Part shown: piece after piece, positions 49,753 to 52,739 of the stretch
Position numbering within the stretch: position 1 is the first letter of the stretch
Layout: every line of letters begins with the position of its first letter
Source: Rhodospirillaceae bacterium
GTDB lineage: Bacteria; Pseudomonadota; Alphaproteobacteria; MPNO01; UBA2964
DNA: 64,000 nt
Reading direction: 5' to 3'
NCBI GenBank assembly: GCA_002720855.1
Contig: PBIN01000014.1
Location: forward strand, 186,001-250,000
Translations under genes and position numbers: made by a program
The notes under the pieces: model-generated
What the model was told of the DNA's origin: nothing
Databases searched by the model: none
What the model saw: only the letters and a program-made list of their open reading frames with translations

Positions 49753-50831
49753 ATTTTGATGACAAGCTCGATGTGATCGTTGCCCGCCGAGATGAGCTGA
49801 CGCAATTGATGTCCGGTGAGCAAAGCGTCGAGCCCGATGAATTCGTACGTCTTTCGAAGGAATACGCTGAATTGACGCCTGTCGTCGAATGCATTGATGA
49901 GATGCGGTCTCTGCAAAACGAAATTGCTGATCTCGGTGGAATGGTAGCCGACACGGAATCTGATGCCGAAATGCGCAGCCTCGCAGAAGAAGAGATGAGA
50001 GAAGCGCGAGACCGTTTGCCGGAGATAGAACAACGGCTGCAACTCTTACTGTTGCCCAAAGATGCAGCCGATGAAAAGAATGCAATTTTAGAGGTTAGGG
50101 CTGGGACCGGCGGGGAGGAAGCGGCATTGTTTGCGGCGGATCTCTTCAGGATGTATCAGCGCTATTCAGAGCGCCGCGGTTGGCGCTTTGAGACCATGCA
50201 ACTGTCCGATACCGGCATTGGAGGGCTTAAAGAAGCAGTGGCGGAGATTACCGGTAAGGGCGTATTTGCCCGGCTAAAGTTTGAGTCCGGTGTTCACCGA
50301 GTTCAGCGAATTCCAGAAACAGAATCCGGTGGCCGAATACACACCTCGGCCGCCACAGTTGCTGTGTTGCCGGAAGCGGAAGAGGTGGATGTTGTAATTG
50401 AGGATAAAGATCTTCGCATCGATACCTATCGCTCACAGGGTGCCGGCGGACAGCATGTCAATACAACAGACAGTGCAGTACGCATTACCCACCTGCCAAC
50501 CGGAATCGTCGTAAGCCAACAGGACGAGAAATCGCAACACAAGAATCGTGCGAAAGCGATGAAGGTTCTCCGGTCGAGGATCTATGAGGCAGAACGTGCC
50601 GCAGTAGCAGCAGACCGCGCGGCTGCACGAAAGGATCAGGTCGGTTCAGGCGATCGTTCAGAGCGTATACGGACCTATAATTTTCCACAGGGCCGGGTAA
50701 CCGATCACCGAATCGGACTTACCCTCCATAAGCTGGATCGGGTCATTGAAGGTGAAGCGCTTGATGAGGTTGTCGACGCATTGACCGCTGAAGATCAGGC
50801 AACGCGATTGGCAGAGTTTTCTGATCAGTGA
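49749..50831 (+). CDS. prfA: Peptide chain release factor 1
   Basis: A 360-residue factor that ends translation at UAA and UAG. The codon-recognition motif is PET in [12 protein letters not shown], and the GGQ loop [18 protein letters not shown] triggers peptide release. [12 protein letters not shown]-type and [15 protein letters not shown] segments complete the family pattern. GTG start inside the hemA stop; its own stop overlaps prmC by four bases. This arrangement favours coupled translation with its modifying enzyme. Confidence 0.98.
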
Positions 50832-51679
50832 CCTGTTTGACGATTTCGAGTGCGTTAGAGAGTGCCGTTACGATATTGGCCGCTGCGGGGGTTGATAACC
50901 CAAGAATTGATGCTCGCCTCTTGCTATGTCACACAGCTCAAATAGAGCCAGCGACTGTCATATCGGACCCAGATAAAAAATTGCTTCCTGAGGATGTACG
51001 CACTTTTGAAGAATTGATCGAAAGGCGTGTCAGGCGTGAACCGGTTTCGCATTTGATCGGTGAACGTGAATTCTGGAGTTTGCCCTTTAAGGTTGGTCCG
51101 GATGTTCTCGATCCTCGTCCGGATAGCGAAACACTTATAAACGCTGCCCTCAAACTGATTGATAATCGTTCCCGGGAGATTTCGGTGTTGGATCTCGGAA
51201 CGGGTAGCGGTTGTCTCCTGATTACGATGTTGACCGAGCTGCCCTATGCAACAGGCGTTGGCGTCGATATTTCTGAGCGTGCATTATCGGTTGCCCGGAT
51301 TAATGCTGAGGCGAACGCTGTTTCCAGCCGCGCTTCCTTTTTGAAGTCTTCCTGGGGGGAGTTGGTCAACGAACGCTTTGATCTCATCCTCTGCAATCCT
51401 CCCTATATCGCAATAAGTGAATTTGAGAATCTTGAGCCAGAGGTTAGTCAATATGAACCAGAAATCGCACTCTGCGCTGGAGATGATGGTCTCCAAAAAT
51501 ATCGGGAATTAGCCTCTGAAGTTTTTCGATTGATAGTGCCAAACGGTTTTGCAGTTGTGGAATGTGGTCGTGGACAGCTGGCATCCATGGTCGAGATTTT
51601 CTCAAATGAAGGGCTCCAATTGAGAGAAAGACATACGGATCTCGGTGGAATCGAAAGGTGTGGTGTATTTGGCCGGTAG
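50828..51679 (+). CDS. prmC: Release-factor N5-glutamine methyltransferase
   Basis: A 283-residue enzyme that methylates the glutamine of the GGQ motif in RF1 and RF2. The helical N-terminal domain binds the factor. Motif I is [16 protein letters not shown] and the catalytic CNPPYI binds the glutamine side chain. [13 protein letters not shown] is family specific. GTG start overlapping prfA by four bases. A hairpin-rich non-coding stretch follows its stop. Confidence 0.97.
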
Positions 51680-51689
51680 TGCGTGTTAA

Positions 51690-51890
51690 CCATCCCTGAA
51701 AAAAAGGGTTGGAAAGCATGGACAACCTCTCTAGGGTGCAACTCGGGCGAATGAGGAAGGCCACAGGCACCTCGCCCAAATGTTCCTGAAAAGGCTGCGA
51801 AAGCAGAGCCACGGCGACCGTGGAATAGCGGTTGTTGAAATGGGGCGCGAATGTTGGGGAAACATTCGTAGTGCACGCAAGCCGTTCGGG
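51690..51890 (+). ncRNA. Hairpin-rich spacer upstream of the DUF4167 gene (candidate structured RNA)
   Basis: In the 242-base gap after prmC I can draw five consecutive hairpins on the plus strand: 51690-51697/51705-51712 (one mismatch, GA6 loop); GGGCG 51745-51749 with CGCCC 51773-51777 plus AGG/CCT inside; GGCTGC-GAAA-GCA..GCC (51793-51810, GNRA loop); CCACGG-CGA-CCGTGG (51809-51823, sharing two bases with the previous one); and GAATGTT-GGGGA-AACATTC (51849-51867). No open frame fits. It does not resemble a tRNA, RNase P, tmRNA, SRP RNA or a riboswitch that I know. It may be a cis-acting leader of the DUF4167 gene or a small RNA. Confidence 0.45.
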
Positions 51891-51921
51891 GGGTAGTGAA
51901 ACATTAACCGGATAAGAATTA

Positions 51922-52503
51922 ATGAGATCAGGTTCCAATAACCGGCGCTCGCGAGGTCGGGGTAACTCTGGCCGCGGCAACCGGCCTCAGCGTAATAACA
52001 ATGTGGATAGTAATGGTCCTGACGTGAAAGTTCGGGGCAGCGTCCAGCAGGTCGTTGATAAGTATTTGGCTCTGGCAAGAGAAGCCACAACGGGTGGTGA
52101 TCCTGTCAAAGCGGAAAATTATTACCAGCATGCTGAGCATTATTTCCGAGTTTTGAGCGCAAATGGCGGCGGAGACAATCGCCAGGATAAACAGCAGCGC
52201 AACAATAGGAACGACCGGAATAACGCTAACGGACAGCATGCCGCTGCCAATGGTGCAAACACCAACGGTGCGAATGGTCATGCAAACGAAGAGGAAAAAC
52301 CCGCCACGGCAGTTAATGGTAATGGAGAGGCGGAGATCGTAAGCACCGACCCGCAAGCCCCAAATAGTGCCGAACCCGCGGAAGCCTCAAAAACAGCAGA
52401 ATCATCGGATAGCGAAGAAGCAGTTGTTGAACGTACTGACATTGTTCAGGAACCGGCGTCCGAAGCAGCTCCTGAATCTTCGGAAGAAACACCTCCCGCG
52501 TAA
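51922..52503 (+). CDS. DUF4167 family protein (probable RNA-binding)
   Basis: A 193-residue protein. The N-terminus is Arg/Gly/Asn rich (NNRRSRGRGNSGRGNRPQRNN), like RGG-type RNA-binding tails. The short DUF4167 core is VRGSVQQVVDKYLALAREA and AENYYQHAEHYFRVLSANG. The rest is a low-complexity Asn- then Glu/Ala-rich tail. The family is alphaproteobacterial and usually sits after prmC. RNA binding is inferred from composition only. Preceded by the structured spacer. Confidence 0.88.
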   Translation: MRSGSNNRRSRGRGNSGRGNRPQRNNNVDSNGPDVKVRGSVQQVVDKYLALAREATTGGDPVKAENYYQHAEHYFRVLSANGGGDNRQDKQQRNNRNDRNNANGQHAAANGANTNGANGHANEEEKPATAVNGNGEAEIVSTDPQAPNSAEPAEASKTAESSDSEEAVVERTDIVQEPASEAAPESSEETPPA

Positions 52504-52617
52504 CGTGCTAGACGGAATACCGTCAACCTTTCCTTTATAAGATTTTGCCAGAGTTTAGTCCTGTGCGGGCAAGTGATGTGCGTGTGGGCACATAAATTCG
52601 GCTCTTTGGCGCAATCC

Positions 52618-52650
52618 CTTGTGGGATCTGGTGACAATTACCATATCACT
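52618..52650 (+). promoter_or_regulatory. Possible RpoH-type promoter of clpB
   Basis: CTTGTG (52618-52623), a 17-base spacer and CCATATCACT (52641-52650) resemble the alphaproteobacterial heat-shock promoter pattern, about 90 bases upstream of clpB. No CIRCE element is seen here. Confidence 0.4.
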
Positions 52651-52739
52651 ATAGGGACGCCGGTTTCGGGTCCTTCACGAAACGCTCGCCGGATTCCGGG
52701 GGCACTTATACGCAATGTCTCTTAAGGGAGTTGCTCGTT

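Follow-up and report, generated by a model that had tools for sequence, protein, structure and literature searches.

The window, a stretch of 64,000 nucleotides from an alphaproteobacterial genome of 3.58 Mb (98% complete), carries the gene order hemA-prfA-prmC-DUF4167-clpB, in which hemA was named from its position and sequence. The stop codon of prmC (50828-51679) and the ATG of the DUF4167 gene are separated by a gap of exactly 242 bases (51680-51921), the extent that an earlier, sequence-only reading had given it; the plus strand of this gap holds no open reading frame of at least 60 amino acids, in agreement with that reading's description of it as devoid of reading frames. The DUF4167 gene (51922-52503, plus strand) encodes a protein of 193 amino acids assigned to PF13763 (Pfam E 1.4e-27). 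On its far side, the DUF4167-clpB spacer (52504-52736) shows 72-74% identity in four of five close congeners, strong folding is seen throughout the class in the 150 bases 3' of DUF4167 (mean z -2.1), and a possible terminator of the gene is the hairpin GACGGAATACCGTC (52511-52524), which precedes a T-rich stretch. The sequence CTTGTGG...CCATAT (52618-52646) upstream of clpB, the gene of a heat-shock chaperone, resembles a heat-shock (RpoH) promoter.

The 5' part of the gap contains a promoter. An A-tract at 51699-51708, a possible UP element that is near-constant upstream of DUF4167 across many orders, is followed by a -35 element, TTGGAA (51709-51714), conserved in both sequence and position, and, 17 nt after the -35 box, by a -10 element, C-TAGGGT (51731-51737), so that the window's promoter reads AAAAAAAGGG-TTGGAA-17 nt-TAGGGT (51699-51737, plus strand). 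Relatives share the -10 pattern CTA(G/C)nnT and the 17-nt spacer, which is 18 nt in a few Maricaulales-like genomes, and from this spacing the promoter is probably of the sigma-70 type. Since 51698-51737 is conserved promoter, the RNA part begins only near 51743-51745, where transcription is predicted to start. The whole gap had been read as structured RNA; this description fits the part from about 51744 onward, whereas the first 60 or so bases are a DNA signal, and a stem predicted at 51682-51720 was rejected as a part of the RNA because it overlaps the promoter.

The window's genome contains the exact promoter pattern a single time, and all remaining matches there carry two mismatches and arise at the control rate. 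Using a looser pattern of 14 fixed bases on 192 alphaproteobacterial genomes drawn across the class, we obtained 28 matches, one per genome, of which 25 lie upstream of DUF4167 (24 with the gene directly downstream and one, in G181, confirmed by coordinates); the reversed-pattern control gave 8 matches in the same genomes. At 30 DUF4167 loci of the class, 17 scored at least 15, compared with none of the reversed controls. The same arrangement stands 5' of DUF4167 in Rhodospirillales-like genomes, Parvibaculum, Bradyrhizobium and other Rhizobiales, Sneathiellales, Azospirillaceae and Maricaulales-like genomes, at distances of 150-600 nt from the start codon across lineages. Being present in about one-seventh of the genomes, the strict pattern is widespread but not universal, and the DUF4167 loci of some lineages have promoter scores no better than those of controls. 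The distribution of these matches indicates that the promoter is gene-specific for DUF4167.

Downstream of the predicted start, the leader would extend for about 178 nt on the plus strand. Its 5' end is formed by P1 (51745-51777), a GGGCGA/TCGCCC hairpin with an apical stem (51760-51762/51766-51768). Next come P2 (51793-51810), a GNRA-capped hairpin of the form GG-CUGC-GAAA-GCAG-nn-CC; P4 (51814-51835), in which GCGACCG (51814-51820) pairs with CGGUUGU (51829-51835); and P5 (51848-51868), the hairpin CGAAUGUU/AACAUUCG. A long-range helix, P3 (51784-51891), joins 51784-51790 to 51885-51891 and 51793-51799 to 51876-51883. The remaining bases up to the start codon, GUGAAACaaUAACCGGA (51891-51921), form a conserved stretch in which AAC and AACCGGA are invariant in nine of nine sequences and in which most congeners have a small GGUUA/UAACC hairpin. 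A search of the plus strand from 51500 to 52100 found no intrinsic terminator.

The gap as a whole folds with a z score of -2.29 (3 of 200 dinucleotide shuffles folded equally well) and the predicted transcript with -3.07 (1 of 200), and perfect 6-bp stem seeds number four in the gap, where mononucleotide shuffles give 0.39. Its minus strand is nearly as foldable (z -2.05), so folding energy alone is weak evidence and leaves the strand undecided; the plus strand is fixed by the promoter, the compensatory changes described below and the adjacent start codon. All three stems singled out by the sequence-only reading are present in the window, although two are only partly conserved among relatives. 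The GAAA-capped stem, CTGC-GAAA-GCAG at 51795-51806, proved nearly invariant. The CCACGG/CCGTGG stem (51809-51823) exists as described but is lost in three of nine sequences (L008, L010 and L090) and has one pair broken in each of L003 and L005; the competing helix 51814-51820/51829-51835, that is, P4, is better kept, and we rejected the stem as a core element since it is unconserved beyond close congeners. The GAATGTT/AACATTC stem is likewise found in the window, within 51848-51868, where relatives show only an interrupted hairpin.

Comparison with five congeners revealed that the leader, from about 51744 to the ATG, is 81-87% identical to that of the window, compared with 59-65% for the last 180 bases of prmC and 56-71% for the start of clpB. 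Identity reaches 92-100% in the P1 hairpin and in the core at 51780-51826, and is 79-88% at 51870-51921. The first 13 DUF4167 codons (51922-51960) are also 85-87% identical at the DNA level, against 73-78% for the rest of the domain, and repeat a AATAACCGG word (TTAACCGG in the window) that relatives have just 5' of the start codon; this repeat is possibly the second part of a putative binding site.

Covariation was assessed on nine distinct sequences (alignment A2), whose effective number is only 1.7. In this set, 91.4% of the cells of a 37-pair structure are paired and seven pairs (11 cells) have changed on both sides, whereas controls slid by 1-3 columns gave 32-45% paired cells and 0-3 double-changed pairs. 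The clearest compensations are located in P1 (G-C to A-U in L006, C-G to U-A in L008 and L010), in its apical stem (C-G to both U-A and A-U) and in P5, where three pairs have changed on both sides and 83.6% of cells are paired, the hairpin being interrupted in congeners. P4 is maintained mainly through G-U/G-C changes, with the rows of L008 and L010 misaligned at this helix. P3 is less certain, as both of its strands are near-invariant and only one double change was seen (G-C to A-U, L008). The P2 stem is almost invariant and thus provides no covariation signal, but its loop is always GNRA in the nine sequences (GAAA, GAGA, GUAA or GCAA), and a variation confined in this way fits a real tetraloop. 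Compensating changes, which the sequence-only reading had proposed looking for in its stems, were therefore found in several helices, though its CCACGG/CCGTGG stem fails in three of the nine sequences.

A search of the whole window against Rfam 15 at the curated threshold returned no matches, and a permissive search of the region returned only a chance snoRNA match (E 0.88), as expected from the earlier statement that no known riboswitch or housekeeping RNA could be recognized. Neither of the two outcomes named in advance as counting against a structured leader, absent covariation or membership in a known RNA family, was encountered. The window contains no tRNA or tmRNA. We rejected 6S RNA, which resembles the leader in length and as a conserved housekeeping-style transcript but differs in that the DUF4167 leader has a branched fold and stands before a gene; the genome's only RF00013 match lies on another contig (C10:23020-23175). 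With a covariance model of the leader, R1, the gap was the sole match in its own genome, and among 289 genomes of the class only members of the genus were recovered; the leader of the sister genus G009 (L090) was recovered by DNA similarity. Every homologous leader found directly adjoins DUF4167.

Of 144 alphaproteobacterial genomes, 129 encode the protein found downstream of the leader, as does only one of the 14 control genomes, that of Caulobacter; two alphaproteobacterial genomes (G124 and G067) have additional divergent copies. The protein combines a basic N-terminus rich in invariant residues (MRxGxNxRRxRGRG), predicted to be disordered, with a conserved helical part, for which structure prediction gives a confident helical hairpin. 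A sequence search of the PDB found no meaningful relative of DUF4167, and the open-access literature contains passing mentions only. In a granule preparation from Paracoccus, DUF4167 was among the abundant proteins, beside ribosomal proteins and those of the H-NS type (PMC11150862). Such company would suit a protein that is abundant and perhaps binds nucleic acids, although such preparations contain contaminants. DUF4167 is a basic protein specific to Alphaproteobacteria and is probably abundant.

P2 and P3 have the strand 51793-51799 in common, and the conservation of both of its partner strands suggests a two-state switch. When either helix was forced, the two states lay 0-5.3 kcal/mol apart in nine of nine sequences, with P3 preferred in the window, L004, L005, L006 and L002, P2 preferred in L003, L010 and L090, and L008 mixed. 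On this modeling, the folds of the leader probably compete as a two-state structure. In both the P2 state and the P3 state the start codon is paired only in part, which gives no clear sign of control through mere occlusion of the ribosome site.

The reading we favor with moderate confidence is that the region comprises a promoter and a cis-regulatory 5' leader of the DUF4167 mRNA with a two-state fold. The suggestion of an RNA leader made by the sequence-only reading is well supported: the element has a promoter to itself, is conserved as far as the start codon, shows compensatory changes, always adjoins DUF4167 and matches no Rfam family. In the mechanism we propose, RNA polymerase would start near 51744 at the dedicated promoter and transcribe the leader of about 178 nt into DUF4167 without an intervening intrinsic terminator. 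The leader would have P1 at its 5' end, followed by a domain in which the invariant strand GGCUGCG would pair either locally, in the GNRA hairpin of P2, or distantly, in P3, with a partner strand 30-46 nt 5' of the start codon. The switch between P2 and P3 may tune DUF4167 expression, and its likeliest trigger would be the DUF4167 protein itself, acting by negative feedback. Autoregulation through the leader is no more than plausible, the signs of it, the basic N-terminus and helical hairpin of the protein, being indirect, and we put the protein forward as the trigger only tentatively.

The same leader could instead respond to another trigger: it may be a riboswitch for a metabolite, the target of a different RNA-binding protein, a sensor of temperature or a site of Rho-dependent attenuation. 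Two competing folds with conserved strands would suit any of these, and the adjoining gene, clpB, encodes a heat-shock chaperone. We consider this rather doubtful. No riboswitch or thermometer family of Rfam matched, and a range of one genus plus a sister genus is narrow for a metabolite riboswitch, whose aptamer should be conserved across distant taxa, while R1 stayed within the genus among the 289 genomes. An RNA thermometer would hold the ribosome site in a weak helix, whereas the site is not clearly hidden here, the mean unpaired probability of the AUG being 0.37-0.95 across the nine sequences in silico.

The leaders of other lineages fall into unrelated sequence clusters with a mean z of -0.76, against -0.63 for prmC coding sequence, indicating no extra stability, and no enriched common word was found among them. 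We therefore rejected a class-wide conserved RNA fold; the class has in common the promoter and the presence of a long leader, without this fold. A class that keeps the promoter while leader sequences change fully and show no unusual stability could indicate that the promoter alone matters, the structure of the long UTR serving to protect the mRNA without switching. This is unlikely for the window's family, in which the leader is better conserved than coding sequence and in which near-invariant unpaired stretches and compensatory changes exceed the needs of stability alone. The lack of conservation of leader sequence and fold outside this family also weakens the idea of a single ancient binding site. 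A wider proposal, in which DUF4167 is an Alphaproteobacteria-specific RNA-binding protein with one ancient gene-specific promoter, retained over much of the class, and controls itself via fast-evolving two-state leaders that each lineage built for itself, is speculative and in our view rather doubtful.

A stand-alone, trans-acting sRNA might also be made from this promoter, ending by processing or Rho-dependent termination, with DUF4167 a mere neighbor or else reached by read-through. The promoter looks strong, a compact fold starts at the predicted transcription start and conservation exceeds that of the neighboring coding sequence; however, the plus strand lacks an intrinsic terminator before DUF4167, conservation runs on to the ATG, and the leader was never seen apart from DUF4167, a linkage that a trans-acting RNA does not need, making this reading quite improbable. 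Attenuation of DUF4167 by a leader peptide (51751-51789, MRKATGTSPKCS) can be dismissed almost entirely, for although the window has an ATG just past the RNA 5' end, this start codon is unconserved, L002 and L090 having ACG in its place, and L008 would encode a different peptide, while the RNA helix is retained.

The DUF4167 leader shares with autoregulatory leaders of RNA-binding proteins, such as ribosomal-protein leaders and the 5' UTR of RNase E (rne), its own promoter, a structured element directly 5' of the gene, a product that is basic and probably abundant, and a phylogenetically narrow fold, although it matches no Rfam family. The alphaproteobacterial 5'-leader motifs serC, speF, ybhL and metA/SAM-II (Corbino et al. 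2005, PMC1273637) similarly place a near-consensus promoter directly 5' of a structured element linked to one gene, but with other sequences and genes, and none matches the DUF4167 leader. The main text of that paper does not mention hemK, clpB or prfA (PMC1273637), nor do the main texts of further alphaproteobacterial RNA papers mention hemK/prmC/clpB. Judged by Rfam 15 and by the open-access literature searched, the leader is a so far undescribed one among structured mRNA leaders.

DUF4167 is found in about nine-tenths of the sampled alphaproteobacterial genomes and has no known function. To our knowledge, bacterial promoters are seldom recognizable and gene-specific across such distances, and the DUF4167 promoter is unusual in being both over many orders. 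That many orders have kept a promoter dedicated to this gene, and that selection acts on a folded leader, suggests a housekeeping protein that is abundant and tightly controlled. As a candidate RNA target, the leader offers a way to ask whether DUF4167 is an RNA-binding regulator.
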